Positions 544 through 27,004 of a DNA stretch of 32,213 nt are shown here, piece by piece. Within the stretch, counting starts at the first letter, position 1. Each line of letters begins with the position of its first letter. The position numbers and the translations under genes are program-made. The notes below the pieces were generated by a model. That model had not been told where the DNA came from, searched no databases, and worked only from the letters and a program-made list of their open reading frames with translations. The DNA comes from Opitutaceae bacterium (GTDB lineage: Bacteria; Verrucomicrobiota; Verrucomicrobiia; Opitutales; Opitutaceae), in assembly GCA_014879845.1 (NCBI GenBank), contig JACSRI010000091.1:1-32213 (forward strand), given 5' to 3'.

Positions 544-603
544 CGGAAGGCGCGAGGGCTTGACGGCTGGGTGCCCGGGATTCTCGCGCCCTCGCGCCTT
601 CCG
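544..603. repeat. Palindromic element with 16-bp perfect arms
   Basis: CGGAAGGCGCGAGGGC at 544-559 is the exact reverse complement of 588-603, with a 28-nt loop. Just before it, GAAGGTCGGA occurs twice in a purine-rich run (about 512-549). The element fills most of the 120-bp gap between the propeller gene and the MoaD-like gene, which share a strand. It resembles REP/MITE-type palindromic repeats and could act as an attenuator between the two genes. No T-run marks it as a standard intrinsic terminator. Confidence 0.75.
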
Positions 604-628
604 TCGTTTGACCGTAACCGCGGCGCGG

Positions 629-1795
629 CTACGGGAGCATCTGTACTTCGACCGAAAGCACGGCGGGCAGGTCGCGCACGATCGGCCGCCACGAGTCGCC
701 GCCGTCGGCCGAGCCGTAGACTTGGCCGCCCGTCGTGCCGAAATACACGCCGCACGGGTCGAGCGAATCCACGGCCATGGCGTCGCGGTAGACGTTCACG
801 TAGCAGTCCTGCTGTGGCAGTCCCTTGGTCAGCGGCTCCCATTCGCCGCCGCCGGTGCGGCTGCGGTAGACGCGGAGTTTCCCCTCCGGCGGGTAGTGCA
901 GGGAGTCGCTCGTGATCGGCACGACGTAGATCGTATCCGGTTCGTGGGCATGCACGTCGATGGGGAAGCCGAAGTCGCAGGGCAGGTCGCCGCTCACCTC
1001 GGTCCAGTGGCCGCCGGCGTTGTCGCTGCGCATGACGTCCCAGTGCTTCTGCATGAAGAGCACGTCGGGCCGGGATGGATGCAGCGCGATGCGGTGCACG
1101 CAGTGGCCGACCTCGGCGTCGGGGTCGGGCAGCTCGTAGTTCGACTTGAGGCCCTTGTTGATCGGGCGCCAGGTCGCGCCGCCGTCGTCGGTGCGGAAGG
1201 CGCCGGCGGCGGAGATCGCGATGAAGATGCGCCGTGGGTTTTTCGGATCGATGATGATGGTGTGCAGGCCCATGCCGCCGGCCCCGGGCGACCACAGGCC
1301 GGGCTTGACCTGGCGCAGGCCGGAGAGCTCGGTCCACGAGGTGGCGCCGTCTTTCGAGAGGAAGAGCGCGGCGTCCTCGGCCCCCGCGTAGACGGTGTCG
1401 CGATCGGTCAACGACGGCTCGAGGTGCCAGATGCGCTTGAACTCCCAGGGGTGCTGCGTGCCGTCATACCACTGGTGCGTGCCGGGCGTGCCGTCGTAGA
1501 CGAACTGGTTGCTCACGCCCTTGGGCATGCCGCCGGGACCGACGAGGTCCTCGGGCCGCGTGCCGGGGGGATTCCAGGTCCTCCCGCCGTCGTCGGAGCG
1601 TTGGATGATCTGGCCGAACCAGCTGCTCGTCTGGGACGCGTAGATACGGTCCGGGTCGAGCGGCGAGCCCTTCATGTGGTAGATTTCCCAGCCGGCGAAG
1701 TGCGGGCCGTCGACCTTCCAGTCGCGGCGCTGGCCATCGGAGGTGAGGATGAAGGCACCCTTCTTGGTGCCGACGAGGACACGGACACGGCTCAT
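629..1795 (-). CDS. Asp-box (BNR) repeat beta-propeller protein, sialidase-like fold
   Basis: The 388-residue protein has six Asp-box motifs of the form S-x-D-x-G-x-x-W: SDDGGRTW (67-74), SKDGATSW (147-154), TDDGGATW (202-209), SDNAGGHW (257-264), SRTGGGEW (312-319) and SADGGDSW (362-369). Asp boxes mark beta-propellers of the sialidase/BNR and VPS10 type, so a single propeller is likely. There is no signal peptide, so it is probably cytosolic, unlike true sialidases. I do not see the arginine triad of sialidases and would not call it a sialidase on this evidence. The start at 1795 is supported by AAGGAG six bases upstream (1807-1802 on the minus strand). The MoaD/ThiS-like gene follows after 120 bp. 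The fold call is firm; the activity is unknown. Confidence 0.85.
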
Positions 1796-1956
1796 GGTTG
1801 GCTCCTTGTCTCAGGCTGACGGTTTTGGCGCGCCACCGGGGGAGGAGGGTGGGGGACGGTGTGGCGCCAGATCGGGCATGGCATGAAGTGAAACGGCCGC
1901 GCGGGCGAGCCCTTCTTGCGTGATGCATGAAGGACCGCCCGAGCGCGTGGGGTGGA

Positions 1957-2490
1957 TCAGGACGTGGCCCTGTCGCCGCCGCAGCAACCGCCGCCGGTGG
2001 CGAATTTCTGCACGGCGGCCGCGAGTTCGTCCTCGCAGACATCGCGTTGATGCGTGGCGACCGACCAGCTGTGGCCGAACGGATCGTCGAGCAGTCCGTA
2101 GCGGTCGCCCCAGAACATGTCGGCCAGCGGCATGCGCACGGTGCAGCCCGCGCGCACGGCCTGCGCGAAGGTCACGTCGGCGTCGTCGACGTAAAGGTGG
2201 ATGGTCACGGCCGCGCCGCCGAGGGCCTTCGGGCCGCGCGAGCCCATCTCGGGGAACTCGTCGACGAGCATGACGATGGAGTCGCCGATCTTGATCTGCG
2301 CATGCCAGATGCGGCCGTCGGGCCCGGCAAGCCGGCTGATCTCGGCGGCGCCCAAGGCCTTTTTGTAGAACTCGATGGCTGCGGCCGCGCCCGCGCAGAC
2401 GAGATGCGGTGTGACCGTGTGCATGCCCGGCGGGATGCGGGACGGCGTGCGGGTGGTGGAGGCGGGAGTCGGGAGGGTCGTGGTGCTCAT
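1957..2490 (-). CDS. VOC-family protein (PhnB/glyoxalase-like)
   Basis: This 177-residue protein has the PhnB-like VOC pattern: HTVTPHLVCAGAAAAIEFYKKA near the start (about 24-45) and DPFGHSWSVATH near residue 140-150. The paired beta-alpha-beta-beta-beta modules of this family bind a metal or small ligand, but substrates vary widely. An unusual cysteine pair in a glycine-rich tail (GGGCCGG) closes the protein. It is divergent from a YCII/DGPF protein and an ECF42-type sigma factor. VOC, YCII and DUF1428 proteins often accompany such sigma factors, so it may belong to the same regulon. An ATG at the HTVTPH segment, about 22 residues in, is a possible alternative start. No substrate can be assigned. 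Confidence 0.85.
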   Translation of the reverse strand: MSTTTLPTPASTTRTPSRIPPGMHTVTPHLVCAGAAAAIEFYKKALGAAEISRLAGPDGRIWHAQIKIGDSIVMLVDEFPEMGSRGPKALGGAAVTIHLYVDDADVTFAQAVRAGCTVRMPLADMFWGDRYGLLDDPFGHSWSVATHQRDVCEDELAAAVQKFATGGGCCGGDRATS

Positions 2491-2566
2491 GGTGTGGATC
2501 GTGGTGGATTGCGGTGTTTGTTCTGTTGCGGGGAGTCACCTTCACGACGCGCCGATCGCGCTGATC

Positions 2567-2627
2567 CGGACATCTGCCGGTGATTTCTCTGGCGAGGATT
2601 TCGCGCGGCGAGTTGCTCAGATGTCCG
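2567..2627. repeat. Inverted repeat in the VOC / YCII-sigma divergent region
   Basis: CGGACATCTG at 2567-2576 is exactly complementary to CAGATGTCCG at 2618-2627, with a 41-nt loop. It is centred in the 211-bp region (2491-2701) from which the VOC gene and the YCII-sigma pair are read in opposite directions. It could be a regulatory binding site with two half-sites or another palindromic repeat. The arms alone do not decide, and I do not see convincing -35/-10 boxes. Confidence 0.5.
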
Positions 2628-2701
2628 TCCTCGGCTTTTTCGTTCGTCGACGCAGAGGAACCCGTGCACCCAAGCGCTAAGATCCCACCGCGTCTCCGCC
2701 C

Positions 2702-3112
2702 ATGAACACACCTCCCGCCTCCCCGTTTCTTCTCATCTTCCGCGAGCCGTCCGACGACGTCTATCGCACTCTGTCGGCCGAGGAACGCCAGCGCCTGCTC
2801 GAGCAGTGGAACGCCTGGTACGACGGCCTCGCCACGCAGGGCAAGGTCCAGCACGGCGAGCCGCTCGAGCCGGGCGGCCGCGTCGTGCGTCAGCAGCGCG
2901 TCACCGACGGCCCGTTCGTCGAGGCCAAGGAGGCGGTCGGCGGCTATTTCCTGCTCACCGTGGCCGACCTCGAGGAGGCCACGGCCATCGCGCTGCGCTG
3001 CCCGAGCCTGCACCTCGGCATGAGCGTCGAGGTGCGGCCGATCGCCGGTGCGTGCCCGAGTCTGGGCGTGCAGGGTCGTCCGCTGCGCCAGTCGGCCGCC
3101 GCGCCGGCCTGA
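2702..3112 (+). CDS. YCII-related (DGPF) domain protein
   Basis: The 136-residue protein carries the hallmark DGPF motif (TDGPFVEAKE, about 67-76) followed by VGGYFLL. This is the DGPF subgroup of the YCII-related family, which has a dimeric alpha-beta barrel fold. The family has no settled biochemical role; putative peroxidase or ligand-binding activities have been suggested. The next gene, an ECF42-type sigma factor, starts only four bases after the stop codon. The two are therefore probably co-transcribed and translationally linked. DGPF genes are the known conserved neighbours and targets of ECF42 sigma factors. The residues after about 115 (proline, glycine and alanine rich) look like a non-conserved tail. 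Confidence 0.9.
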   Translation: MNTPPASPFLLIFREPSDDVYRTLSAEERQRLLEQWNAWYDGLATQGKVQHGEPLEPGGRVVRQQRVTDGPFVEAKEAVGGYFLLTVADLEEATAIALRCPSLHLGMSVEVRPIAGACPSLGVQGRPLRQSAAAPA

Positions 3113-3116
3113 AGCT

Positions 3117-4451
3117 GTGGCTGAAGACGCAGTCAACTCGGGCGCCGTCCGCGGCGAACCCGGCGGCGGCATCCCGCCGCCGCGCCCGGGCGATCCCTCG
3201 GCGATCGTCGAGCATTTCTTCCGCCACGAGACCGGCCGCCTGCACGGCGCACTCACGCGCCTGCTCGGCCCGGGCAACCTCGCGCTCGTCGAGGACGTGA
3301 CGCAGGGCGCGCTGCTGCAGGCCATGCGCACGTGGTCGATCGGCGGCGTGCCGGCCAATCCCTCGGCCTGGATCACGCGCGTCGCGATCAACCTCGCCCG
3401 CGACGCCGTGCGCCACCGGCGCATGGCCCACGGCAAGGAGGACGGCATCGTCACGCACATCGAGCAGCTCCAGCCCTCCGTCCCGGTCCCGGGCGAGAGC
3501 GCGCCGGAGATCCGTGACGACGCGCTGCGGCTCATGTTCGTCTGCTGTCATCCCGAGCTCGCGGCCGACGCGCAGGTCGTCCTCGCGCTCAAGGTCCTGG
3601 GCGGTTTCAGCATCGGCGAGATCGCACGCGCGTTCTTCAGCAGCGAGGCGGCGATCGAGAAGCAGCTCACGCGCACCAAGGAGCGGATACGCGAGGCCGG
3701 CATCGGCTTCGAGATCCCGGAGGGTCCGGCCCTCGCCGCGCGGCTCGACGGCGTGCTCGCCACGCTCTACCTCATGTTCAACGAGGGCTACAAGGCCTCG
3801 GCGGGCGAGCGGCTCCTGCGCGAGGAGCTCTGCCTCGAGGCGGTGCGGCTCGCGGCCATCCTCGTGGATCATCCCGCCGGGGACGTGCCGCGCGCGCACG
3901 CCTTGCTCGCGCTCATGCTGCTCAATGCCGCGCGCTTTCCCGCGCGGGTCGGCGACCAGGGCGACCTGCTGCGCCTCGACGACCAGGACCGCGGCAAGTG
4001 GGATGCCCACCTGATCGCGCGCGGGCTGAAGCACCTCGTGCGGGCCGCGCGCGGCACGGAGGTGAGCGAGTATCATCTCCAGGCCGGGATCGCGGCGTGC
4101 CACTGCACCGCGGCCGACCACGCCTCCACCGACTGGGCGCGCATCCTCCGCCACTACGACGATCTCCTGCGGCTGAATCCATCCCCGGTCATCGCGCTCA
4201 ACCGCGCCGTGGCCGTGGCGAGCCTGCACGGTCCGCGGGCCGGGCTCGAGGCGATCGACGCCATCCCGCGGCGCGAGCGACTCGAGACGAATCACCTGCT
4301 GCACGCCGTCACCGGCGAGTTGTATTGGCGGCTCGGCGACAGTGCGGCCGCGGCGGCGAGTTTTCGGCGCGCCCTGCAGCTCGCACGCGTGGGGCCGGAG
4401 CAGGCCCACCTCGAGCGCCTGGTCGAGCGAGCCCTCGGCGGGCCCGCGTAG
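3117..4451 (+). CDS. ECF42-type RNA polymerase sigma factor with C-terminal extension (DUF6596)
   Basis: The protein is 444 residues from the GTG at 3117, much longer than a classical ECF sigma factor. The sigma-2 region (DVTQGALLQAMRTW) and sigma-4 helix-turn-helix (LKVLGGFSIGEIARAF, then AIEKQLTRTKERIRE) come first. A long helical C-terminal half contains LYLMFNEGYKASAG and TPR-like repeats near the end. This layout is typical of ECF42, where the extension rather than an anti-sigma factor is thought to control activity. No anti-sigma gene is present. I chose the GTG because it lies four bases after the YCII stop; in-frame codons upstream lie inside that gene. The neighbouring DGPF gene is the expected ECF42 partner. 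The signal it senses is unknown. Confidence 0.92.
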   Translation: MAEDAVNSGAVRGEPGGGIPPPRPGDPSAIVEHFFRHETGRLHGALTRLLGPGNLALVEDVTQGALLQAMRTWSIGGVPANPSAWITRVAINLARDAVRHRRMAHGKEDGIVTHIEQLQPSVPVPGESAPEIRDDALRLMFVCCHPELAADAQVVLALKVLGGFSIGEIARAFFSSEAAIEKQLTRTKERIREAGIGFEIPEGPALAARLDGVLATLYLMFNEGYKASAGERLLREELCLEAVRLAAILVDHPAGDVPRAHALLALMLLNAARFPARVGDQGDLLRLDDQDRGKWDAHLIARGLKHLVRAARGTEVSEYHLQAGIAACHCTAADHASTDWARILRHYDDLLRLNPSPVIALNRAVAVASLHGPRAGLEAIDAIPRRERLETNHLLHAVTGELYWRLGDSAAAAASFRRALQLARVGPEQAHLERLVERALGGPA

Positions 4452-4489
4452 GTGCGCCGGCCGGCCGCTCGGTCGTGTACGACTCCGTC

Positions 4490-5986
4490 TCAGATCCCGC
4501 CGCCCTGGGCGAGGTCGCCGGCGACGGCGCGCATGAGATCCTCGAGGCGGAAGGGCTTGGGCAGGCACACGACAGGGCCGTGGCGCGTCTGGCGGACGCC
4601 GCGTTCGTGCAGGCTCGCCGAGATGAGCACGATCGGGAGGTCCGCGCGGAAGGTGCGCAGCGCGCCGACGAGGGCGTGGTCGTCCGATGTGCCCGCCGAA
4701 TCGAGCACGGCGCCGGCGAGCGAGCCGGTGAACTTCGAGACCCACAGCAGCATCTCCTCGGAGGTGTGTCCCTGGAGCACGCGCAGGCCGCGTCGGCCGG
4801 CGGCCTCCTCGATGCCGTGCACGATGTCGCTTTCGTCCTCCATGAGCAGGAGCACCCGGTCGTGTTCGACCGCGGCGACGGCGTGCGCGATGCGGCGCAG
4901 CACCGGCAGCGTGAGTCGGAAACAGGCGCCGCGCGCGCTTTCGACGAGCTCGAGCTCACCCTTGTGCGTCCGGGCGAGTGCGCGGGCGGCCGACAGGCCT
5001 AGGCCGCGGCCCGCGCCCTTGGTGGATTCGTAGCTCTCGAAGATGCGGTCGCGGATCTCCGGCGCCACGCCGGGTCCGTTGTCCTGGAACTCGATGCACG
5101 CGTGGCCCTGCGGGGTGAACGAGCCGCGCACCGCGATGTGTGCGTCGGACTGGAGTCTCATCGCCTCGATGGCGTTGGTCACGAGGTTGAGCACGATCTC
5201 GAGGATCTGGCTCTCGTTGGCCAGCACCTCGCAGGTCGCGAGTTCGTCGAGGTCCAGCGTCAGCTGCGCCTTTTCCGAGCGGACGGCCTCGAAGCCGGCC
5301 AGCTTGCAGGTGTCGGCCACGAGCGAGGCGAGGTTGAAGCTGCGGGCCTCGGTCAGCCGGCCGGTGCTGAAGTCGCGCAGGTTGCGCACCATCTCGGCCA
5401 TGCGCGTGAGCACGGCGCGCAACGGCTGGGCCTCGGGGGCGCTGGCCGACGGCAGGAGGTCGGTCATGAGCATCGCGCCGCTGAGCAGGTTGTTCATGTC
5501 GTGACAGACGGCGTCGGCCATGCGCCCGAGGGCAAGGGTCCGCTCGATGCGGGCCTCCTCGTCGGCGCGCCGCAGCAGCTCCTCCTGCAGGGCTTTCTTC
5601 TCAGTGATGTCCACGCGCAGGGCGCAATAGTAGGCGATGCGGCCGGCGTGATCGCGGATCGGCGTGAGCGTGGAATCGACCCAGTAGAGCCGGCCGTCCT
5701 TGGCGCGGTTGCAGATCTCACCGCGCCAGGTGCGGCCGCGTGCGATGGCCTGCCACATGTCGCGGTAAAACTCGGGGGTGTGCCGCCCGCTCTTGAGGAT
5801 GCGGTGGTTGCGCCCGATCAGCTCCTCGCGCTCGTACCCGGAGATCGCGACGAACGCGTCGTTGACGAACACGATCTGCCCGCGCGTATCGGTGATCGCG
5901 AGGATGCAGGCCGAGTCCAGAAAGTCGTGCACTGAGGCGAGCAGGTACGCGGGAAGTTCCTGGAGGCTGGACGCGGAGCCGGGCAT
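4490..5986 (-). CDS. Soluble PAS-domain hybrid histidine kinase with C-terminal receiver
   Basis: The 498-residue protein has no signal peptide or membrane segment. A PAS domain covers about 20-128, with the segment GYEREELIGRNHRILKSG typical of aerotaxis-type PAS domains and a PAC-like end at VDITEKK. A coiled linker leads to the H-box (VCHDMNN, His162). The ATPase domain shows the N-box (Asn271 in LVTNAIEAM), DNGPGV (302-307) and GRGLGL (326-331). The receiver domain (about 376-495) has acidic residues MEDES, a likely phospho-acceptor Asp429 (AVLDSAG) and Lys477 in PKPF. No cognate regulator lies beside it, so it is an orphan. The PAS domain could bind flavin or haem and sense redox or oxygen, but no ligand residue proves this. 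It converges with the sigma gene across 38 bp. Confidence 0.93.
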   Translation of the reverse strand: MPGSASSLQELPAYLLASVHDFLDSACILAITDTRGQIVFVNDAFVAISGYEREELIGRNHRILKSGRHTPEFYRDMWQAIARGRTWRGEICNRAKDGRLYWVDSTLTPIRDHAGRIAYYCALRVDITEKKALQEELLRRADEEARIERTLALGRMADAVCHDMNNLLSGAMLMTDLLPSASAPEAQPLRAVLTRMAEMVRNLRDFSTGRLTEARSFNLASLVADTCKLAGFEAVRSEKAQLTLDLDELATCEVLANESQILEIVLNLVTNAIEAMRLQSDAHIAVRGSFTPQGHACIEFQDNGPGVAPEIRDRIFESYESTKGAGRGLGLSAARALARTHKGELELVESARGACFRLTLPVLRRIAHAVAAVEHDRVLLLMEDESDIVHGIEEAAGRRGLRVLQGHTSEEMLLWVSKFTGSLAGAVLDSAGTSDDHALVGALRTFRADLPIVLISASLHERGVRQTRHGPVVCLPKPFRLEDLMRAVAGDLAQGGGI

Positions 5987-6073
5987 CGGGGGGGCGGGGG
6001 TCCCCTGATGGAAACCCGAATCCCGATCCGGTCAACTCCCGCGTTGGGTTCGCCGACGCGCCCGGCGCGTGGC

Positions 6074-12217: not shown

Positions 12218-12219
12218 AG

Positions 12220-17309: not shown

Positions 17310-17473
17310 GGTCGTGGTGGGTGAGCCCGCATGATGCCCGATTTCATCCCCGGTGTTGTCATCGCCATGTAAGACTTTGTCAGACGAGCGTCATGACGGC
17401 CTGCGCATCCGTTGGAGCAAGGTGGGTGAGATTTCGGCTTACCGTGCGACGGGTTGGTCGCTTGCATGGCTGC

Positions 17474-18856
17474 ATGATCCCACCCCGGTCCTGGTTGTCC
17501 CTGCTGCTTGGTCTCAGCGTCGTCGCATCCCTCGCGATGCCGAACGTGGCTCCGGCCCAGTCGAGCGCGACCTACACGGTCGAAAAACGCGATCCGTACC
17601 TGCTGCCGCCCACCGACGATGGCCTCCCCGGCGCCGGGCCGCTGCGACGATATGACTGGTTTCAGAATCTCTGGCGCGAGCGCCGTTCGGCGTGGGCGAA
17701 GTCCGTGGGGCAGGATCAGGGCGCGGTGGTTTTCCTCGGCGACTCGATCACGCAGGGCTGGGGCGGCGGCCTGGGGGCGGCGTTTCCCGGCATGAAGGTC
17801 GCCAACCGCGGTATCAGCGGAGACACGACGCGCGGCGTCCTCTTCCGCCTCGCGGATGACGTGCTCGCCGTCAATCCCGCCGCCGTCGTGATCCTGATCG
17901 GCACGAACGACATCGACGAGGGCGCGACGCCCGAGACGATCGCCGGCAACATGCGCCTCATCCTCGATGCCCTCAGGGCGCACGACCCGCGCATGCCCGT
18001 CGTGTTGTGCGAGGTGTTTCCGAGCTCGCCGGTGAAGAACCGCCCGCGCGCGACCATCGAGGAGATCAACCGCCGCTACCGCGCGCTCGTGAAGGGCGAT
18101 CGTCAGGTGACCTACGTGGAGACCTGGGCGCTCTTCGCCGGGCCGGAGGGCGATGCGCGGCCCGAGGAGTTTCCCGACCTGCTGCATCTCAACGATGCCG
18201 CCTACGGCAAGTGGGCCGCGGCGTTGCGTCCGGTTTTCGCGACGCTCGGCCTCATCGAGAAGGAGACGGATTTCGTCATGGAGGAGGGCTTCGAGAGCCT
18301 GTTCAACGGCCGCGACCTGACCGGCTGGGGCTATCGCGTCACCTCCGAGGCCGACCGCGAGGGCGCGCGTCGCTGGCAGGCAGCCGACCCCGGCGCCGCC
18401 GAGTGGCCCTTCGTCGAGAAGGCGGAAAACTTCGACGGCCTCACCGTGTCACCGGACGGCCGATACGCTGCGATCAATGGGCGCCTCGTCATCACCACGC
18501 CGCCCGAGTACCGCAAGGTCACGCAGCTGTTCACCACGCGCGAGTTTCCGCAGGATTTCGTCCTCAAGCTCGAGTTCCGCGCCACGCCGAATGCTGACAG
18601 CGGTGTCTATATCCGCGCGCCCCAGCTGCAGTGCCGCGACTACGTCCTCGCCGGCCCGTGGAAGGATTTGAAGCGCTACCGCCCGCAGGACTGGAACGAG
18701 CTGGTCGTGGAGGTCCGCGGCGGCGTGGCCCTCTGCACGTGCAACGGCGAAGTCATCGATCCCGCGATGAAAGTCCCCGCCACCGGCCCGATCGGCCTCG
18801 AGGGCGACCGTGGCCAGATGGAATACCGACGCATCCGGATCAAGGCGCTGAAGTAG
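17474..18856 (+). CDS. Secreted SGNH/GDSL hydrolase fused to DUF1080
   Basis: The 460-residue protein from the ATG at 17474 has a signal peptide ending near VAPAQ (24-29). Residues about 80-265 form an SGNH hydrolase. They include block I GDSITQGWG with nucleophile Ser91, block II NRGISGDTT (Gly), block III GTND with Asn145, and the catalytic DxxH pair Asp235/His238 in PDLLHLN. From about 272 a DUF1080 (3-keto-disaccharide hydrolase) concanavalin-like domain follows, with EGFESLFNGRDLTGW and the ADSGVYIR strand. The fusion suggests removal of acyl or acetyl groups from a sugar polymer bound by the second domain. Fusions of these domains are known from Planctomycetes and Verrucomicrobia. The substrate is not evident. 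Confidence 0.9.
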   Translation: MIPPRSWLSLLLGLSVVASLAMPNVAPAQSSATYTVEKRDPYLLPPTDDGLPGAGPLRRYDWFQNLWRERRSAWAKSVGQDQGAVVFLGDSITQGWGGGLGAAFPGMKVANRGISGDTTRGVLFRLADDVLAVNPAAVVILIGTNDIDEGATPETIAGNMRLILDALRAHDPRMPVVLCEVFPSSPVKNRPRATIEEINRRYRALVKGDRQVTYVETWALFAGPEGDARPEEFPDLLHLNDAAYGKWAAALRPVFATLGLIEKETDFVMEEGFESLFNGRDLTGWGYRVTSEADREGARRWQAADPGAAEWPFVEKAENFDGLTVSPDGRYAAINGRLVITTPPEYRKVTQLFTTREFPQDFVLKLEFRATPNADSGVYIRAPQLQCRDYVLAGPWKDLKRYRPQDWNELVVEVRGGVALCTCNGEVIDPAMKVPATGPIGLEGDRGQMEYRRIRIKALK

Positions 18857-18881
18857 AGCCCGAGCAAGGCAGGTCAGGCGT

Positions 18882-19025
18882 AACCACGGATGAACACCGA
18901 TGGACACGGACAGAAATCCATGCGGTGTCAGCCAGGGTCGCTGCCGTTTTCCTAGCATGGGCAGACCCGACCAAGCGAATCGGCCTGAAGTCCTGATCCG
19001 TGTGCATCCGTGTCCATCCGTGGTT
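18882..19025. repeat. Long imperfect palindromic element with 30-bp arms
   Basis: The left arm (18882-18911) and the reverse complement of the right arm (18996-19025) agree at 26 of 30 positions, both starting AACCACGGATG. Each arm also has an internal 10-bp period: CACGGATGGA, CACGGATGCA, CACGGAT in the right arm read on the minus strand. The 84-nt centre has no open frame of note. The element fills most of the 232-bp gap between the SGNH/DUF1080 gene and the nucleoside phosphorylase gene. It has the size and form of a non-autonomous mobile repeat (MITE or paired REP). No target-site duplication is visible. Confidence 0.8.
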
Positions 19026-19088
19026 CCTCCTGTTCGATCCGTCTCAGTTGCGACTTTCCGAGAGAAGGCGTTTCGCTAGACCTGTCGC

Positions 19089-19931
19089 ATGACCGAGCAG
19101 GAACAACAGCATGCGGAGAACGTCAGGCAGTCCGCGGCGCAGATTTCGTCGCTCAGCAGCCGGCTCGGGCTCCAGCCGAAGATCGCGATCGTGCTCGGCA
19201 CCGGGCTTGGCGGCCTGGCCGACCGGCTCGAGAGAGCGGCCTCGATTCCCTACGCGGAGTTGCCGGGTTTTCCGATCCTTACGGTCAAGGGGCACGCCGG
19301 TGTGCTCCTCGTCGGCCGGCTCGGCGGTGTGCCGGTCATCGTGCTCAACGGACGAAAACACTTCTACGAGACGTGCGACGCCACGCCGCTCAAGACCATG
19401 ATCCGCGCCGTGCGCCGCGCCGGCGCATCGACGCTTTTTCTCTCCAACGCTGCGGGCAGCCTGCGCGCGCACATGCACGTGAGCGAGCTGATGCTCATTC
19501 GCGATCATATCAACTTCCTCGGGCTCAACCCGCTCACCGGGCCCAACGACGACGAGTTCGGTCCGCGCTTTTTCCCCGTGCACGACGCATGGGAACCCGA
19601 GCTTTCGGCACGCATCAAGTCCGTGGCGAAACGCCTCGGCATCACCCTGCACGAAGGGGTCTACGTGGCGTTTCGCGGACCGTCGTTCGAGACGCCGGCG
19701 GAGATCCGCATGGCGCAGGGCTGGGGTGCTGACGCTGTCGGCATGTCCAGCGTGCCGGATTGCCTGATCGCGCGCCATTGCGGCATGAAGGTCGTCGGCA
19801 TTTCCTGCCTGACCAACATGGGTGCCGGCCTCTCCGACGAGATCCTCACGCACGCGCACACGCTCGCCAACGCCGCGCGCGGCGCCGCCGCCTTCGAGCA
19901 GCTGGTGATCGAGGCGGTGAAGGTGCTGTGA
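19089..19931 (+). CDS. punA: Purine nucleoside phosphorylase (trimeric type)
   Basis: The 280-residue protein matches the low-molecular-mass, trimeric purine nucleoside phosphorylase family. It has the phosphate-binding loop VLGTGLGG (about 34-41; usually GSGLG), GRKHFYE (usually GRxHxYEG), SNAAGS (usually TNAAGG), FRGPSFETPAEIRM, and GADAVGMSSVPDCLIA (usually STVPE). It splits inosine, guanosine and deoxy forms with phosphate for purine salvage. Several changes from consensus sit near the active site: Ser to Thr in the P-loop, Glu to Asp in VPD, and the C-terminal Asn-containing SCLTNMGAGL kept. Altered substrate range, for instance methylthioadenosine, is possible. No Shine-Dalgarno is clear. 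It is convergent with wrbA, with a palindromic element between. Confidence 0.9.
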   Translation: MTEQEQQHAENVRQSAAQISSLSSRLGLQPKIAIVLGTGLGGLADRLERAASIPYAELPGFPILTVKGHAGVLLVGRLGGVPVIVLNGRKHFYETCDATPLKTMIRAVRRAGASTLFLSNAAGSLRAHMHVSELMLIRDHINFLGLNPLTGPNDDEFGPRFFPVHDAWEPELSARIKSVAKRLGITLHEGVYVAFRGPSFETPAEIRMAQGWGADAVGMSSVPDCLIARHCGMKVVGISCLTNMGAGLSDEILTHAHTLANAARGAAAFEQLVIEAVKVL

Positions 19932-19963
19932 CGCACGAGCGGCCGACGCTCGGCTGCTCGTGC

Positions 19964-20029
19964 GTGGCGCAGACTTCCAATCTGCCGTCTTCGCGGCGTC
20001 GTTCCGAGCAGGCTGGAAGCCTGCGCTAC
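19964..20029. repeat. Double-hairpin palindromic element at the punA/wrbA junction
   Basis: GTGGCGCAGACTTCCAATCTGC (read as 19964-19985) matches the reverse complement of 20008-20029 at 18 of 22 positions. Each arm is itself palindromic; the right arm folds perfectly as GCAGGCT-TCC-AGCCTGC on the minus strand. The two genes converge here, so the structure could stop transcription from both sides. The right arm also contains the stop codon of wrbA (TAG, 20028-20026). It resembles a REP-type repeat. Confidence 0.75.
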
Positions 20030-20646: not shown

Positions 20647-20691
20647 GGTGGGATGAAGGATGGAAGGTGCGTGTGACGGTGAGGGTGGTAA

Positions 20692-21651
20692 TCAAGCATA
20701 GGTCCGCGCCGGACGCAGCGGCGGCAGGTGCTTTTCGATCTCGGCGCGTGCCGGCTCGTACTGTGCGGGCAGTTTCAGCGCCCCGCCAAGCGAGACCGCC
20801 GGCTCGTCGTGCGCGAAGCCCGGGACGTCCGTCGCGATCTCGAAGAGCACGCCGCCGCGCTCGCGGTAGTAGATCGAACGGAAGTAGCTTCGGTCGCGCA
20901 CGGGCGAGACGAGGGTGCCGCCAGCGGCGAGTCGCGCCTGCAGGGTGAGTTCGCCCGTGTCGTCGGGCACGCGCCAGGCGATGTGGTGGATCGTGCCGAC
21001 GCCGCCGAGTCCGCGCGGTGCGTGCGGCGTGGCGACGACATCGATGAATGTCCCGGAGCCGCCCGCGCCGGTCTCGAAGCGCGCACGATCGCCCTCGCGG
21101 CGGACGAGCCGGTAGCCCATGTCCCCCGTGATCAGCGTCTCGGTGATCTGGGGTGTCGCGATGGCGAGTTCGGCCGTGTGCAGTCCGCGCAGGGCAAAGG
21201 CCGCGGGGACCGCACCTCCGCTCCAGCCGACGCGCTGGTCGTTCGCGACGGCGACGATCTCCACGGGGATGCCGTCGGGATCGGCGAACTCGAGTACGTC
21301 CTCGCCGAAGCGCATCGCGCGCGCCACGGCGACACCGTGGCGCCGCAGGCGCTCCGTCCAGAAATCGAGCGACTCCGGCGCCGTGGACAACGTGATGCGC
21401 GCGACCTGTCCGGACCCGACGCGCCCGCGGCCGCCCACACCGGGCCAGGTGAAGAACGTGACGATCGTGCCCGGCGACCCGGTCTCGTCGCCGTAGTAGA
21501 GATGGTAGGCGGATGGGTCGTCGAAGTTGACCGTCTTCTTCACCAGGCGCAGGCCGAGCAGGCCGGCGTAGAAGTCGACGTTGGCCTGCGGATCACTCGC
21601 GATCGCGGTGAGGTGATGGATGCCGGTGATAGGCGAGGATGTGGTGGTCAT
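20692..21651 (-). CDS. Ring-cleaving dioxygenase, VOC family (MhqO-like)
   Basis: The 319-residue protein has two tandem VOC modules. Metal ligands can be placed at the first histidine pair in GIHHLTAIA (about 10-18), at GTIHHIAWRV in the second module, and at the glutamate in GVLFEIATD. It matches the MhqO/MhqA/LinE-like hydroquinone dioxygenase group common in soil bacteria. These Fe(II) enzymes open the ring of hydroquinones or catechols. The start is backed by GAGGA just upstream. wrbA follows on the same strand, so the pair probably reduces quinones and then cleaves the hydroquinones. No MhqR-type regulator gene is in the window. Confidence 0.9.
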   Translation of the reverse strand: MTTTSSPITGIHHLTAIASDPQANVDFYAGLLGLRLVKKTVNFDDPSAYHLYYGDETGSPGTIVTFFTWPGVGGRGRVGSGQVARITLSTAPESLDFWTERLRRHGVAVARAMRFGEDVLEFADPDGIPVEIVAVANDQRVGWSGGAVPAAFALRGLHTAELAIATPQITETLITGDMGYRLVRREGDRARFETGAGGSGTFIDVVATPHAPRGLGGVGTIHHIAWRVPDDTGELTLQARLAAGGTLVSPVRDRSYFRSIYYRERGGVLFEIATDVPGFAHDEPAVSLGGALKLPAQYEPARAEIEKHLPPLRPARTYA

Positions 21652-21795
21652 GTCCTCAGTCTAGCGTCGACGGCGCGGTCCGGCCATTGCGCGAAGCGGA
21701 CAGCCATCATGCGCATCACGCATGACGCTGCGGCCCGTGCCCCGCGGGAGAATCTTGCCGCCGCCACCGGACAGCGGGCAGCATCGCCGCACACC

Positions 21796-23178
21796 ATGAA
21801 CGCCCCGGACTCTCTCGAGGGAAAACTCCGCGAGCATCTCGGCGTCCCTGCCGTCCTCACCGCGCAGGAGGACCTGCTCCCCTATGCGTTCGACGGCACG
21901 GCCGCGCTCCGGCAGGTGCCGCGCGCCGTGGTCTTCGCCCGCTCGGCCGAGCAGGTGGCGACGGTGTTGCGGCTCGCCGGCGCCGCCGGCGTGCCGGTCG
22001 TGACGCGCGGCAGCGGCACCGGCCTGAGCGGCGGCAGCGTGCCGGTGCCCGGCGCCCTCGTGCTCTGCCTCGTCGAGATGGATCGCATCCTTGAGATCGA
22101 TACGCGCAATCTCACGCTCCGCGCGGAGGCCGGGGTGATCACCCAGCAGATCTACGACGCGGCCGACGCGGCCGGGTTGTTCTACCCGCCCGATCCCGGC
22201 TCGATGAAGGTCTCCACCATCGGCGGCAACGTCGCGGAAAACTCCGGCGGCCTGCGCGGACTCAAGTACGGCGTCACGCGCGACTATGTCATGGGCCTCG
22301 AGGTCGTGCTCGCCGACGGCTCGATCTGCTGGCTGGGAAACAAGTGCGTCAAGGACGTCGCCGGATACAACCTGCGCGACCTCTTCATCGGCAGCGAGGG
22401 CACGCTCGGCGTGATCACCCAGGTCCTGCTCAAGCTCCTCCCGAAGCCGGCGGCACGCGCCACGCTGCTCGCGACCTTCGCGCAGATGGATGCCGCGGCC
22501 GAGACCGTCTCGGCCATCATCGCGGCGAAGATCATCCCGTGCACGTTGGAGTTCCTCGACCAGAAAACCATCCGCTGCGTGGAGGACTTCGCCCACGTCG
22601 GCCTGCCGACCGAGGCCGCCGCGCTGCTCCTCATCGAGACCGACGGCCATCCCGCCGCCGTCGCCGACGAGATTTCGCGCATCGAGGCGCTGTGTCGCGA
22701 GCGGGGCGCCACCACGCTCAAGCGTGCCGCCGACGCCGCGGAGGCCACGCGTCTCGCCACCGCGCGCCGCAGCGCCTTCAGCGCCCTCGCCCGCCTGCGC
22801 CCCACGACGATCCTGGAGGACGTGACCGTGCCGCGCAGCGAACTCGCGGCCATGATCCGATTCGTCGGGGAGACCGCGGCAAGATACCGCCTCGAGGTGG
22901 CGACCTTCGGCCACTTCGGCGACGGCAACCTGCACCCGACCTTTCTCACCGACGAACGTGATGCTGGTGAGATGCACCGCGTCGAGGAGGCGCTGAAGGA
23001 CATCTTCGCCCAGGCGCTCGCCCTTGGCGGCACGATCACCGGCGAGCACGGCGTGGGCCTGGCCAAGCGATCGTTCCTGCGCGGGCAGATGGGCGACGCG
23101 AGCTACGCGCTGCTGAAGGCGGTCAAGCGCGCCATCGATCCGGACGGGCTTCTCAATCCCGGAAAGGCGACCGAGTGA
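21796..23178 (+). CDS. glcD: Glycolate oxidase subunit GlcD (FAD-linked)
   Basis: The 460-residue protein from the ATG at 21796 has the PCMH-type FAD-binding domain with VTRGSGTGLSGGSVPV (about 76-91) and GGNVAENSGGLRGLKYGVT. Its C-terminal domain carries FGHFGDGNLHPT and GEHGVGLAKR. It oxidises glycolate (or D-lactate) to glyoxylate (pyruvate), passing electrons to the iron-sulfur subunit encoded next. The 356-codon upstream open frame runs antisense to the dioxygenase gene and is not coding. The stop codon overlaps the glcF start as TGATG. The usual third subunit glcE is absent here, as in many two-gene glcDF loci. Confidence 0.95.
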   Translation: MNAPDSLEGKLREHLGVPAVLTAQEDLLPYAFDGTAALRQVPRAVVFARSAEQVATVLRLAGAAGVPVVTRGSGTGLSGGSVPVPGALVLCLVEMDRILEIDTRNLTLRAEAGVITQQIYDAADAAGLFYPPDPGSMKVSTIGGNVAENSGGLRGLKYGVTRDYVMGLEVVLADGSICWLGNKCVKDVAGYNLRDLFIGSEGTLGVITQVLLKLLPKPAARATLLATFAQMDAAAETVSAIIAAKIIPCTLEFLDQKTIRCVEDFAHVGLPTEAAALLLIETDGHPAAVADEISRIEALCRERGATTLKRAADAAEATRLATARRSAFSALARLRPTTILEDVTVPRSELAAMIRFVGETAARYRLEVATFGHFGDGNLHPTFLTDERDAGEMHRVEEALKDIFAQALALGGTITGEHGVGLAKRSFLRGQMGDASYALLKAVKRAIDPDGLLNPGKATE

Positions 23179-24623
23179 TGAGCATGGGGAAGAGCGGACT
23201 GCGCTCGCTGGACTACTCGATCCTTCAGCAGTGCATGCACTGCGGCATGTGTCTGCCGGTGTGCCCCACGTATGCGGAGACCAGGCGCGAGCGCCACTCG
23301 CCGCGCGGGCGCATCGCGCTGCTGCGCGCGATCGCGGATGGCGAACTGGCGATGAACCGCGCGATCGCCGAGGAGATGAACTATTGCCTCGGCTGCCTCG
23401 CCTGCACCTCGGCCTGCCCGGCGGGCGTCGACTACGGCACGATGGTCGAGACGGCGCGGGCCGAGGCGGAGGAACTGCGCATCCTCGCGACTCCCAAACG
23501 CGACTTCATCCGCTGGTCGACCATGCGTGTGCTCTTCACGCGGCCGCGACTGTTGCGGCTGGTCGGGCGCCTGCTCTGGCTCTGGCAGGCGAGCGGGCTG
23601 CAGGCGCTCTCGCGCCGATGGAGACTCACGCGCCTCCTTCCGACGCGTATTCGTGAGCTGGAGCCACTCACGCCGCGGATATGCGCGAAGTTCTCGCACC
23701 AGATCATCGCCCCGATCGAGCGTCCGCGCGATGGCGGGGTGAAGCACCGCGTGCTTGTGCTCACCGGGTGCATGCAGGACCTGATGTTCTCCGAGATCAA
23801 TCGCGCGACGGTCGATGTGCTGCTGGAGAACGGCTGCGAGGTGCACACACCGCCGGCGCAGTTCTGCTGCGGTTCCCTCCACGCGCACAACGGCGACCAC
23901 GCTACCGCTCAACTCCTCGCCCGCCGGCAGCTCGATGCGATCGATCCCGCGCGCTACGATGCCATCATCTCCAACGCCGGCGGTTGCGGCTCGCACTTGC
24001 GCCACTACGACCGGCTGCTGGCCGGCGAAACCGCGTATTCGGAGCGGGCGCGTGAGTGGACGCGCAAGCTGAAGGACATCCACGAGTGGCTCGTCGAGAT
24101 CGGGTTTCGCCGGCCAGCGCCTTGCGGCGAACATCGAACATTCAATATCCAGTTCCCAACACCCCATCAGACAGCAAATGCCGAGGTCCGGGGTTCGATG
24201 TTGGAGGTTGGTTGTTCGAGGTCGGGCGATCGTGGTAGGTCAGCTCCGGTGACGTACCACGAGTCCTGCCACCTCTGCCACGGGCAGAAGGTGAGCGCGC
24301 AGCCGCGGGCGATTCTACGGGCGCTGCCCGGCGTCGAGCTGAGGGAGTGCGCCGAGGCCACCTGGTGCTGCGGCAGTGCGGGCATCTACAACATCACCCA
24401 GCCGCGCACCGCGACCTGGCTGCAGGAGCGCAAGGTCGCCCACCTGCGTGCGACGGGCGCGGAGATCGTCGCGCTGGCCAATCCGGGATGCCACCTGCAG
24501 GTCGCGAACGGCTTGCGCGCGGCAGGTTGTGTCAGCACGCGCGTGGTCCACCCGATCGTGCTGTTGGCCGAGGCCTACGCCGCGGAGCGTTCAACCCGGA
24601 GCGACGTCGGTCAGGCCCCATAG
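23178..24623 (+). CDS. glcF: Glycolate oxidase iron-sulfur subunit GlcF, with in-frame repeat insert
   Basis: The 481-residue protein from the ATG at 23178 (one-base overlap with glcD) carries two [4Fe-4S] motifs: CMHCGMCLPVCP near residue 17 and CLGCLACTSACP near 71. Two CCG domains follow: FCCGSLHAH with GGCGSHLRHY, and WCCGSAGIYN with NPGCHLQV. It moves electrons from GlcD to the respiratory chain. About 40 residues around 315-355 are foreign to the family. The conserved IGFRRPA should run almost directly into APVTYHESCH, but an intervening segment (HRTFNIQFPTPHQ, then SMLEVGCSR) interrupts it; this is encoded by the repeat at 24121-24240. The last 11 codons overlap the end of hypF on the other strand. 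A GTG one codon earlier is an alternative start. Confidence 0.92.
   Translation: MSMGKSGLRSLDYSILQQCMHCGMCLPVCPTYAETRRERHSPRGRIALLRAIADGELAMNRAIAEEMNYCLGCLACTSACPAGVDYGTMVETARAEAEELRILATPKRDFIRWSTMRVLFTRPRLLRLVGRLLWLWQASGLQALSRRWRLTRLLPTRIRELEPLTPRICAKFSHQIIAPIERPRDGGVKHRVLVLTGCMQDLMFSEINRATVDVLLENGCEVHTPPAQFCCGSLHAHNGDHATAQLLARRQLDAIDPARYDAIISNAGGCGSHLRHYDRLLAGETAYSERAREWTRKLKDIHEWLVEIGFRRPAPCGEHRTFNIQFPTPHQTANAEVRGSMLEVGCSRSGDRGRSAPVTYHESCHLCHGQKVSAQPRAILRALPGVELRECAEATWCCGSAGIYNITQPRTATWLQERKVAHLRATGAEIVALANPGCHLQVANGLRAAGCVSTRVVHPIVLLAEAYAAERSTRSDVGQAP
24121..24240. repeat. REP-like repeat block inserted in frame within glcF
   Basis: Composition drops abruptly to A/T-richer, repetitive sequence inside an otherwise very GC-rich gene. 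AACATCGAAC (24130-24139) is the exact reverse complement of GTTCGATGTT (24193-24202), and related words (CGAACA, TTGTTCGA, CCAACA, TGTTGG) recur on both sides. The encoded words (FNIQFPTP forward; PTSNIEPRTS on the minus strand) are typical of a repeat family seen across Verrucomicrobia and Planctomycetes genomes. Boundaries are approximate. No target duplication can be named. Confidence 0.65.
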
Positions 24624-26918
24624 CGCGCCCAGCGCCTGGCCGGCGGCGAGGCCGCCGTCGTTGGGTGGAAGGTCGTGGTGAACGAGCACGTCGAATTTCG
24701 CGGCACGAAGGCCGTGTGTAGTCAGATCGAGGAGACACGCGTTCTGGAAACACCCGCCGCTCAGCGCCACGGCGCCAACGCCGATGGATTCGGCGATCGT
24801 CACCACGGCTGCGGCAAGTGCGGCATGGAAGGCGGCGGCAAGTGCGGCGGCCGGCTCGTGGCCACGCCGGGCCAGGAGCGAGTCGATCATCGGGCGCCAG
24901 TCGACCGTGACGACGCCCCCCGGGCTCATCTCGAGGAAGAAGGGCAGCGCCGCGACAGGCCCGCTGTGGCGTGCCGCGGCAGACTCAACCTGCATCGCGG
25001 CCTGGCCCTCGAAACCCGAGCGGTCGGCGAGGCCGAGCAGGGAGGCCACGCCGTCAAAGAGGCGGCCGGCGCTGCTCGTGACGGGCGCATGCGTCCGCTG
25101 CGCGAGCATGTGGGCGAGCAGCCGGGCTCCGTCCTCGCCGAATCCGTGCTCCAGCGCTTCGACACGAAAACGCGGGTGGTCGGCACCCATGATCTCGTGG
25201 AGCAGCCCGAGGGCCGTTCGGCGCGGCTCGCGCACGGCGGCTTCGCCTCCCGGGAGACGGAAGGCGCGGAGGTGCGCGACCCGGCGCGCCGTCCGCGCGG
25301 CCCGATTGATGAGGATGAACTCACCACCCCAGATCGTGCCGTCGGTTCCATGGCCCGTGCCGTCCCACGACACACCGAGCACACACTCCGGCCCGCCGCC
25401 ATGCTCGAGCAGGCACGCGAGGATGTGCGCGAGGTGATGCTGGACAGGCGTCACGGGCAATCCGAGGCGACGGGCGTAGGTGGTGGAGGTGTAGTCGGGA
25501 TGCGCGTCGCAGGCGACCCGGCCGAACCGGCCGCCGTAAAGTGAACCGAGGAGATCGACCGTGCGCTCGAAAGCGTCGACCGCGGCCGGATTGGCGAGAT
25601 CGCCGATGTGGGGGCTGAGCACGAGCCGGTCGCCCGCCGTGACGGCGATGGTGTTTTTCATGTGCCCGCCCACGGCCAGGAGCGGCACGTCGGTGTGTGC
25701 GTCGGGCGGCAGCGGGAGCGGGGTCGGCGCCAGGCCGCGAGCGCGGCGCAGGACGATCGGCGCGCCGGCGGTGAGTCGGATGACGGAGTCATCCACCGGC
25801 CGGGCGATGCGGCGGTTGTGCGCGAGATAGGCGTCGGCGATACCGGTGAGTCGCGCGAGCGCCTCGGCTTCGTCGATGCACAGGGGCTCCTCGGAGACGT
25901 TGGCACTGGTCGCGACGACCGGACCGCCGACCTCGGCCAGGAGTTCGACGTGGAGCGGCGCGTAGGGCAGGAGGGCGCCGATCCAGGGATTGTCCGGAGC
26001 GACGGACGGCGCGAGGGCATCGGGGTCGCCGGTGTCGTCGAGGCGCTTCGGCACGAGCACGACCGGGGCGGCCGGGGATTGGAGAAGCGCGCGCGCCGCC
26101 GGGTCGACCATGGCGACCACCTCGAGCGCGGCGAGCGTCGGGAACATCACGGCGAAGGGCTTCTCCTCGCGGTGCTTGCGGCGGCGCAACTCGCGGACCG
26201 CGGGTTCTGAGGTCGCGTCGCAGAAGAGATGATACCCGCCGATGCCCTTCACCGCGACGATCTCGCCAGCGAGGATCGCCTCGGCCGCGCGGGCGACGGC
26301 GTCCTCCCGGCCGGCGATGACCGTGCCGCTGCGATCAAGCAGACGCACAGCCGGGCCGCAGAAGGGGCAGGCATTGGGCTCGGCGTGGTAGCGGCGGTCC
26401 TCGGGGTCCGCATATTCCTGCGCGCACTCCGGACACATCGTGAACGGGCGCATGGTCGTGCGGGGACGGTCGTAGGGCAGCGACTCGAGGATGGAGTAGC
26501 GCGGACCACACTGCGTGCAGTTGATGAAGGCGTAGTGGTGGCGGCGATTGGTGGGGTCGGTCAGTTCGGCGCGGCAGGCGTCGCAGAGCGCGAGGTCGGG
26601 TGTGATCGCGGCGTCCGGTGCGGCCGCGGCGTCGGTCGGGCTTTCCAGGATGGTGAATCCTTCGAGCGAAGCCGGTGCGAGGTCCGGCGCGCGGGCGAGG
26701 TCGACCGAGGTGATGTGTGCAGCGGGCGGTGCGCCCGCGCGGAGACGCTCGACGAAAGCGCGGACGGTGGGCTCGTCGCCGGCGAGTGCGATCTCGACCC
26801 CGTGGATGTCGTTGCAGACCCAGCCTCGAAGGCGCTCCGCGCGGGCGAGCCGCGCCACGGCTGGACGGAATCCCACGCCCTGAACCGTGCCCGTGACGCG
26901 GATACGCCAGGCGGTCAT
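24591..26918 (-). CDS. hypF: [NiFe]-hydrogenase maturation carbamoyltransferase HypF
   Basis: The 775-residue protein has the full HypF layout. An acylphosphatase-like domain (1-90) holds VQGVGFRP. Two zinc fingers use Cys112/115, 134/137, 162/165 and 184/187 (CDAC, CTQC, CPEC, CPFC). A YrdC-like domain spans about 200-390. A Kae1-like carbamoyltransferase domain (about 410-770) has VQHHLAH as metal ligands. HypF uses carbamoyl phosphate and ATP to place a carbamoyl group on HypE, the first step to the cyanide ligands of the NiFe(CN)2CO centre. hypE is not in the window. It is the last gene of the leftward hypA-hypB-hypF group, separated from hypB by a strong palindromic element. Its 3' end overlaps glcF by 33 bp. 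Confidence 0.97.
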   Translation of the reverse strand: MTAWRIRVTGTVQGVGFRPAVARLARAERLRGWVCNDIHGVEIALAGDEPTVRAFVERLRAGAPPAAHITSVDLARAPDLAPASLEGFTILESPTDAAAAPDAAITPDLALCDACRAELTDPTNRRHHYAFINCTQCGPRYSILESLPYDRPRTTMRPFTMCPECAQEYADPEDRRYHAEPNACPFCGPAVRLLDRSGTVIAGREDAVARAAEAILAGEIVAVKGIGGYHLFCDATSEPAVRELRRRKHREEKPFAVMFPTLAALEVVAMVDPAARALLQSPAAPVVLVPKRLDDTGDPDALAPSVAPDNPWIGALLPYAPLHVELLAEVGGPVVATSANVSEEPLCIDEAEALARLTGIADAYLAHNRRIARPVDDSVIRLTAGAPIVLRRARGLAPTPLPLPPDAHTDVPLLAVGGHMKNTIAVTAGDRLVLSPHIGDLANPAAVDAFERTVDLLGSLYGGRFGRVACDAHPDYTSTTYARRLGLPVTPVQHHLAHILACLLEHGGGPECVLGVSWDGTGHGTDGTIWGGEFILINRAARTARRVAHLRAFRLPGGEAAVREPRRTALGLLHEIMGADHPRFRVEALEHGFGEDGARLLAHMLAQRTHAPVTSSAGRLFDGVASLLGLADRSGFEGQAAMQVESAAARHSGPVAALPFFLEMSPGGVVTVDWRPMIDSLLARRGHEPAAALAAAFHAALAAAVVTIAESIGVGAVALSGGCFQNACLLDLTTHGLRAAKFDVLVHHDLPPNDGGLAAGQALGALWGLTDVAPG

Positions 26919-26927
26919 GAGTGTGCG

Positions 26928-27004
26928 GGTAGGGCGAGGCCTCTGGCCGAGCCGCGCGAACGACGCGTGTACGGTTGCGGCTCGGCCAGGGGCCTCGCCT
27001 TACC
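26928..27004. repeat. Palindromic element with 28-bp arms between hypB and hypF
   Basis: The left arm (26928-26955, beginning GGTAGGGCGAGGCC) and the reverse complement of the right arm (26977-27004) agree at 26 of 28 positions. The loop is 21 nt (26956-26976). The predicted RNA hairpin is very strong. It fills most of the 97-bp gap between two genes of one operon, so it could lower hypF expression or stabilise the upstream hypA-hypB RNA. No U-tract follows. The form fits a REP/MITE-type element. Confidence 0.85.

Follow-up and report, generated by a model that had tools for sequence, protein, structure and literature searches.

Here, we report on the palindromic elements of a 32,213-nucleotide stretch of DNA from an Opitutaceae bacterium (GenBank JACSRI010000091.1), referred to throughout as the window, which is contig 38 of a 5.44-Mb draft genome (277 contigs, completeness 99.4%). 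Four elements, E1 to E4, and a dyad within glcF are set among its genes (Table 1). At least three independent families of palindromes are represented in the window by non-autonomous members, which tend to settle a short way past stop codons. Two of the elements, E3 and E4, are pairs of repetitive extragenic palindromic (REP) hairpins with a GTAG foot, linked to REP-associated tyrosine transposases (RAYTs), and E2 appears to be the enzyme-less form of a one-gene element that encodes a nuclease of the GxxExxY family; we give this explanation as a whole a probability of roughly 0.78.

Table 1. Coordinates of the palindromic elements and of the genes beside them in the window.
Feature	Position	Strand	Description
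E1	539–608		dyad with 16-bp perfect arms (544–559/588–603), 20 bp behind the stop of a minus-strand gene (629–1795)
GDSL lipase / 3-keto-disaccharide hydrolase gene	17321–18856	+	3' end carries E2
E2	18882–19025		non-coding terminal-inverted-repeat element, 25 bp past the GDSL-lipase stop codon
Purine nucleoside phosphorylase-type (PNP) gene	19089–19931	+	between E2 and E3
E3	19964–20029		head-to-head REP hairpins between convergent PNP and FMN-reductase-type genes
glcF	23175–24623	+	CCG and 4Fe-4S domains
glcF dyad	24017–24118		16-bp perfect arms within the glcF coding sequence
hypF	24591–26918	−	5' end 9 bp from E4
E4	26928–27004		head-to-head REP hairpin pair, 11 bp behind the 3' end of the hypB-type gene
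CobW/HypB/UreG-domain gene (hypB type)	27016–27771	−	3' end carries E4

A sequence-only reading of the window had listed these palindromes, and all of them are present where it placed them. Ungapped dyad scores, compared with 40 first-order Markov resamples of the window, were 22 for E4, 21 for E2, and 16 for both E1 and the glcF dyad; the resample maximum was 18, with a score of at least 16 in 3/40 resamples and at least 14 in 19/40. E4 and E2 are clearly above chance, and the arms of E1 and glcF only marginally so. E3 is missing among the window dyads that score at least 14, because its left copy has decayed. Folding as single-stranded DNA gave z values of -8.6 for E4, -5.0 for E2 and E1, and -2.0 for E3, whose fold was matched by 6/200 shuffles.

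Copies in this genome were counted with up to two mismatches in the E4 arm and up to one in the E3 arm, against reversed-pattern controls, and starts of E2 sites for the score test were taken from the genome search, one per place; relatives were searched as a set of 76 genomes (E4 arm, PF13366) and a set of 252 related genomes (E3, E2-hexamer pattern). A stop codon lies within 20 bp of 10/13 copies of E2, 20/25 of E4 and 5/18 of E3, compared with 3–5% of random points, and copies inside genes, as judged by a crude gene caller, number 2/27 for E4, 3/22 for E3 and 0/15 for E2. The sequence-only reading had placed all of its palindromes at gene ends, which holds for these copies near stops but not for the glcF block, which lies inside coding sequence. 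It had also proposed several unrelated non-autonomous families, to be recognized by counting copies across the genome, and had named single-copy occurrence of each as one outcome that would speak against it: E2, E3 and E4 are multi-copy, but E1 occurs once.

It is very improbable that the whole set consists of ordinary terminators of transcription or of dyads that arose by chance. Such a reading accounts for the positions behind stop codons, for the single copy of E1, and for the marginal scores of the E1 and glcF arms, but it is contradicted for E2 to E4 by the conservation of E3 and E4 over many copies, for which the reversed patterns gave no match, by the many copies of E2, by compensatory changes in the E4 stem (below), and by the T-run that lies outside, not after, the E2-type ends. 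E1 may still be an element of this kind.

REP hairpin pairs E3 and E4 and their transposases

REPs are reported to lie close to gene 3' ends, and Opitutus terrae to be highly enriched in GTAG repeats (PMC3733652); REPtrons and the cleavage of REP hairpins have also been described (PMC6006769, PMC8266576). The arms of E4 in the window (26929–26953, plus strand, GTAG; 26979–27003, minus strand, GTAA) enclose a variable spacer of 21 nt, and GTAG is retained in the left arm only. This genome holds 53 forward and 55 reverse E4 arms (reversed-pattern control, 0), and most copies seen are about 77 bp long, with an arm tagged by GTAG and its inverted counterpart on either side of some 21 nt of variable spacer. 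Each arm is a hairpin composed of GTAG, GGC, a tandem GA, four further pairs and a 3-nt loop, and the arm is present, with up to two mismatches, in 8 of the 76 searched genomes. In 13 arms taken from this genome and its relatives (10 of them distinct), 98.6% of stem cells are paired, compared with at most 43.3% when the partner strand was slid, and 10 cells carry double changes, compared with 3.4 after shuffling (0/500 shuffles as high); the E4 stem shows compensatory changes.

The single RAYT detected in this genome (loci L140/L325; G000:C75:54333-54704; NF047646 80.8 bits, PF01797 E = 0.016) is enclosed by outward-facing E4 arms (54244 and 54827), the whole spanning 584 bp. A search with PF01797 at E 0.001 had found no RAYT here, and the view that the genome has none was dropped when a relaxed search and NF047646 found this one. 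Its frame is otherwise well conserved and contains an in-frame TAG (L140 1489–1491, minus strand), which may reflect either a nonsense mutation or a fault in the assembly; no intact RAYT was found in this genome. E4-type hairpins also stand beside RAYTs in two relatives (G002 and G112; loci L164 and L332). With its GTAG foot, high-copy inverted dimers at gene ends and a flanked RAYT, E4 is retained among REPs and their inverted doublets (REPINs), since REPs without a tnpA_REP gene have been reported (PMC6006769).

The right copy of E3 is intact (GTAGCGCAGGCTTCCAGCCTGC, 20008–20029, minus strand) and the left copy is decayed (19964–19985, tag GTGG). E3 arms occur 18 + 19 times in this genome (reversed-pattern control, 0), and the GTAGCGCAGGCTTCCAGCCTGC family was found in 45/252 genomes of the family. 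RAYT matches numbered 78 in 13 genomes, one of them this genome, and 30 loci were fetched. In 3/30 (L320, L324 and L330, from G166, G143 and G100, respectively, of related genera), E3 hairpins stand on both sides of the RAYT, and a fourth E3-flanked RAYT (G112:C219) was recognized from coordinates alone; none was found in this genome. E3 has a GTAG-foot hairpin in multi-copy inverted dimers, with one arm decayed in the window copy. In a tree of the 30 RAYTs, a supported branch (96/94) separates the E3 group from the E4 group, the RAYT of G112 is sister to that of this genome (98/89), and REP type agrees within RAYT clades wherever hairpins were found.

Several results weigh against this pairing of hairpins with enzymes. 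Two of five covariation measures for the E4 stem are within the shuffle range, the double-change pair count and further pair types being matched by 170 and 232 of 500 shuffles, respectively. The RAYT of G002 (L164) falls in an unresolved group with that of this genome, and the E3 and E4 groups hold 3 and 2 labelled rows, with 98 and 110 of 500 shuffles as clustered. No GTAG or GTGG hairpin was found at 6/30 RAYT loci. Apart from these results, a scan for GTAG hairpins at the first 30 Y1 loci led nowhere, with 9 found, compared with 13.2 in shuffles.

E3 and E4 are GTAG REP dimers of the type of REPINs or bacterial interspersed mosaic elements (BIMEs), a known kind of system. They resemble REPtrons, REPINs and BIMEs with their RAYT/TnpA_REP enzymes in the GTAG foot, the short hairpin, the head-to-head pairs, the tens of copies, the placement at gene ends and the RAYTs flanked by the same hairpins (PMC3733652). 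They differ in the tandem G-A mismatch of the E4 stem and in the in-frame TAG of the RAYT of this genome and the lack of any E3 RAYT found there. By analogy with studies of other REPs, the RAYT, an HUH/Y1 single-strand transposase, would recognize single-stranded DNA by its GTAG foot and hairpin, cut it and rejoin it. The RAYT of E4 carries a TAG within its frame here and searches gave none for E3, so both families are probably relics in this genome. The genome retains its REP repeats even though a stop codon seems to interrupt the one RAYT detected in it, and the two families add enzyme–hairpin pairings within one bacterial family.

Other RAYT clades in the family have GTAG or GTGG hairpin types of their own (L326, L335, L316–L318, L329, L340, L333, L342, L343, L151 and L152). 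A separate hairpin at the PNP stop codon (19931–19965; 16-nt arms, 94% complementary, 3-nt loop) abuts E3 and is perhaps a terminator, perhaps a repeat that has decayed.

E2 ends and the GxxExxY elements

E2 arms read AACC-ACGGAT-N4-ACGGAT-N4-ACGGAT and are inverted at both ends; in the window, the arm at 18996–19025 is perfect and that at 18882–18911 is two bases off the family hexamer. This genome has 20 two-arm sites, including the window copy, and 10 more that are weak or have one arm (E values up to 0.75), and 13 measured copies are 74–202 bp long. E2 was rejected as a GTAG REP or REPIN: its ends are AACC and hexamers, it has no GTAG foot, and no RAYT is flanked by it, the RAYT of this genome carrying E4 arms. 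Nor does it match a miniature inverted-repeat transposable element (MITE), as neither an interior from a shared progenitor nor a target duplication was found. Bacterial MITEs are likewise short, non-coding and multi-copy with terminal inverted repeats; E2 differs in its unrelated interiors, in having no target-site duplication, and in an enzyme that is not an insertion-sequence transposase. Because of the iterated hexamers, E2 ends look like a sequence-recognized terminus rather than a purely structure-recognized one. An E4 arm lies within one E2 copy (L041), and three copies (L035, L036 and L039) contain a nested second inverted pair with the hexamer GCTGAT, in the same layout and at similar distances, as if co-travelling.

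The enzyme associated with such ends was recognized in relatives. A DNA-only pattern of inverted E2 hexamers about 400 bp apart matched 9 sites (24 rows) in 9 of the 252 genomes, and the reversed pattern matched none. GxxExxY is encoded at all nine sites (hidden Markov model, E 2.4e-33 to 5.9e-19) and at none of 140 other loci (this genome's E2 and E4 loci, Y1 loci and E3 loci, sets that partly overlap). At three of the nine (L275, L281 and L282), E2 hexamers at E2 spacing are kept throughout. None of the 30 E2 loci of this genome encodes GxxExxY, so that E2 can only be a non-autonomous relative. The family (TIGR04256/PF13366) is present in 51 of the 76 searched genomes, at 1 to 11 places each, and once in this genome, as a gene of 125 aa (TIGR04256 E 1.4e-45) that lies, by its flanking translations, between gatA and gatB, with AACC-ACAGAG-N4-ACAGAG-N4-ACAGAG on both sides.

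Inverted repeats stand at most of the GxxExxY loci tested. Among 29 relatives and this genome, 19/30 loci have a repeat score of at least 15 and 27/30 exceed all 20 of their own shuffles (one of the 30, L193, was read at a wrong position). Across phyla, 80 loci in named genomes were selected with one peptide pattern as the best of the candidates listed, and 77 were testable, three having been dropped for flanks that were too short. Repeats scoring at least 15 were present at 51/77, compared with 4/77 when upstream and downstream flanks were mismatched and 0/57 in distal windows; of two archaeal bins among the 80, L241 passes this score and L220 does not. Well-defined elements were those with a score of at least 15 and ACC in both arms (n = 53, 50 or 45, depending on the test), some of which stand at orthologous sites and are not independent. 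Their median length is 452 bp end to end, and the ends of 50 selected elements mostly read [A/C]ACC followed by RCNRAK-type hexamers at 9–10-nt spacing, with an autocorrelation peak at 9–10 nt on the repeat segments (unselected 80-nt flanks were too noisy) and T favoured over about 5 bases outside the ends. The left/right arm identity of 0.88 is biased upward by selection, of which the 77-locus test is free. Elements with similar proteins tend to have similar arms (Mantel r 0.385, n = 50; r 0.309 among 32 genome_contigs loci; 0/2000 permutations as high in either case), a correlation to which shared descent contributes. A stop codon that closes a frame of at least 120 codons lies within 20 bp of 37/45 elements, compared with 5.6% of random points, and searches of plasmids and phages yielded 8 plasmid records and 0 phage records.

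Residues E28, D68, E78-x-K80 and Q92 are invariant in 29 GxxExxY sequences, and an AlphaFold2 model (pLDDT 94.1) has a predicted PD-(D/E)XK fold with a D...E-x-K active site. Within the families on its list, VIA-align gave Z 10.0 for SSO0001 (4ic1), which we take to be a Cas4 protein, and Z 7.2 for Hjc resolvase, which is in the tool's "common" range. Foldseek found no match at E ≤0.001 (best E 0.009), a sequence search of the PDB was weak (E 0.42–0.53, with endonuclease I, 1m0d, at E 0.42), and the PADLOC Cas4 model matched at E 0.0044. The model and residues support GxxExxY as a lone predicted PD-(D/E)XK nuclease, which would share its fold and active-site residues with Cas4, Hjc and T7 endonuclease I but differs from all three in having its gene alone between hexamer repeats. 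Many Cas4 proteins carry an iron–sulphur site; no cysteine is found among the invariant columns of GxxExxY, and a Cas4-like site of this kind is therefore lacking.

E2 might instead be moved by an unrelated transposase or RAYT, with GxxExxY as a passenger between such ends. Cargo genes inside non-autonomous elements are known, and no GxxExxY gene with the hexamer of E2 was found in this genome. We regard this as improbable given GxxExxY at 9/9 pattern hits and at 0 of 56 Y1 loci, and given E2 ends that have no GTAG. The association of E2 with GxxExxY is strong.

These results also sort what the sequence-only reading had said about enzymes. Y1-type transposases flanked by the same hairpins, which it had proposed, do exist for E4 (this genome, G002 and G112) and for E3 (G166, G143 and G100), but E2 pairs with GxxExxY and with no RAYT. 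Recognition of structure, which it had suggested for all of them, is less apt for the iterated hexamers of E2, and one mechanism for all elements was rejected because the E2 ends have no GTAG. Its idea of several families with separate enzymes is partly supported and holds for E2, E3 and E4 but not for E1; no enzyme was found for the glcF block, which it had counted alongside the four.

Movement or residence of the GxxExxY elements

Under the preferred explanation, E2 would be the enzyme-less form of a one-gene element in which AACC and three helically phased hexamers stand at either side of a GxxExxY gene. The nuclease would bind the hexamer arrays at both ends in trans and then pair them, it would cut at the boundary between the T-rich flank and AACC, and the element or its arms would then enter the gap that follows a stop codon, by pasting or by copying, with no target duplication. 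A wider proposal, which we put forward only tentatively and at somewhat less than even odds, is that GxxExxY is the hallmark of a new class of minimal mobile elements in bacteria and at least one archaeal lineage, with one nuclease gene, a median length of 452 bp, inverted triple helically phased hexamers, positions behind stops, no target duplication, and E2-type enzyme-less end pairs alongside.

A number of observations count against movement of this kind. The GxxExxY gene of this genome has ACAGAG hexamers and not the ACGGAT of E2; no cognate enzyme of E2 and no long E2-hexamer element were found in this assembly, so that the enzyme is absent from the genome or has changed its hexamer. Interiors of E2 are mostly unrelated, with a 10-mer common to 4/78 pairs, unlike an ordinary MITE family, and three of these four pairs stem from the nested GCTGAT repeats. 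The score-15 cut is not reached by 26/77 GxxExxY loci, and 12 of the 37 nearby stops overlap the terminus of the element itself, where a TAA or TGA merges into ACC, which leaves a stricter figure of 25/45. Target-site duplications were found at neither E2 nor GxxExxY elements (direct duplications of at least 6 bases flank 0/50 elements, compared with 5.3% of mismatched pairs), and no exact pair of an empty and a filled site was found. Eight loci (L169, L170, L171, L184, L187, L189, L197 and L229) stand at the same gatA–gatB junction, and these orthologous sites suggest long residence or site-specificity rather than free transposition.

The gatA–gatB region of an Opitutaceae record (L197) and of a Candidatus Didemnitutus record (L229) shares up to about 86% DNA identity with the genomes of the family, which by itself points to Opitutaceae (Verrucomicrobiota) as the probable host family. 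Other GxxExxY groups share other sites, such as L276–L279. The hexamers at gatA–gatB differ, being mainly ACGGAG in L169 and L197, ACAGAG throughout in L170, and mixed in L184, L187 and L229; either the element has resided there for long with repeats co-evolving with the enzyme, or the site has been re-entered. In L170, where the element lies between gatA and gatB (1447–1890), the right repeat contains a GTG that shares the frame of gatB and is a possible start codon for it.

A resident, vertically inherited GxxExxY gene, whose repeats are binding sites for autoregulation or mRNA end structure and of which E2 represents dispersed sites for the same protein, would explain the eight orthologous loci, the co-variation of ends with enzyme, the unrelated E2 interiors, and the lack of target duplication. 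We consider this rather unlikely, as 20 two-arm E2 sites are scattered over one genome, the gene is found in 51/76 genomes at 1 to 11 places each, and a PD-(D/E)XK active site belongs to a cutter and not to a regulator. Alphaproteobacterial replicons also have fabD–fabG junctions with and without the element: Sphingomonas parapaucimobilis (L367, NZ_CP155749.1) has one with GCGAAG-type ends in its short fabD–fabG gap, whereas the gaps of S. paeninsulae and Rhizobium indigoferae are about 30 bp long and have none, although these junctions are too diverged to give an exact boundary.

The filling of the same site in several genera, the lone nuclease gene, the gene-end placement and again the absence of target duplication would also suit a homing-type nuclease. 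Such an enzyme would cleave unoccupied sites at gene ends, repair would then copy the element in, and the ends would double as recognition arrays. Homing endonucleases are similar in their lone gene and recurrent insertion sites, but GxxExxY elements fill several different sites, and many enzyme-less copies exist, 20 two-arm E2 sites in one genome implying spread beyond a single site; to our knowledge, symmetric terminal inverted repeats are not a usual feature of homing. This origin is therefore unlikely in our judgment.

The GxxExxY elements, with E2 as their probable enzyme-less form, also resemble TIRtrons, whose tyrosine transposases (TIRYTs) are flanked by long inverted repeats unrelated to REPs (PMC3733652). 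In both, a small nuclease gene lies between inverted repeats that also occur gene-free (PMC3733652); GxxExxY differs in being a predicted PD-(D/E)XK and not an HUH/Y1 enzyme, and in its ends of iterated hexamers. Among the titles and starts of abstracts listed, with subscription journals and preprints outside their scope, no description of GxxExxY or PDDEXK genes with such repeats was found, nor any among those on repeats of Verrucomicrobia or Planctomycetes or on the sequence CCACGGATG. The names GxxExxY, PF13366, TIGR04256 and PDDEXK_3 occur in three papers, one of which concerns reverse transcriptases. The words nuclease, RAYT, REPIN and Verrucomicrobi- do not occur in the excerpt of a review of prokaryotic MITEs (PMC10969869). 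With this scope, the negatives speak weakly for novelty. The surprise of the analysis was E2 with its GxxExxY counterpart: a named family of unknown role in many phyla gains, in its terminal repeats, a testable substrate, and a dispersed CCACGGATGAACACGGATG-like repeat can be read as the terminus of an element with known layout.

E1 and the glcF dyad

E1 was rejected as a repeat family, being single-copy in this genome: no copies were found elsewhere in it (next match, E = 0.024), and neither a family nor an enzyme was found for it. Beside the glcF dyad, heptamer-like inverted arms (CGAACAT) lie in frame at about 24128–24224; this stretch folds no better than shuffles (z -0.8) and was the sole copy found in 414 kb of this genome. 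An S23 four-helix-bundle protein, presumably a possible partner of such a heptamer repeat, was not borne out, its motif not being found in the loci examined to that point. The heptamer arms look like another repeat type, with a 7-nt period, and the region of the dyad, judged by its sequence, is a possible in-frame insertion.

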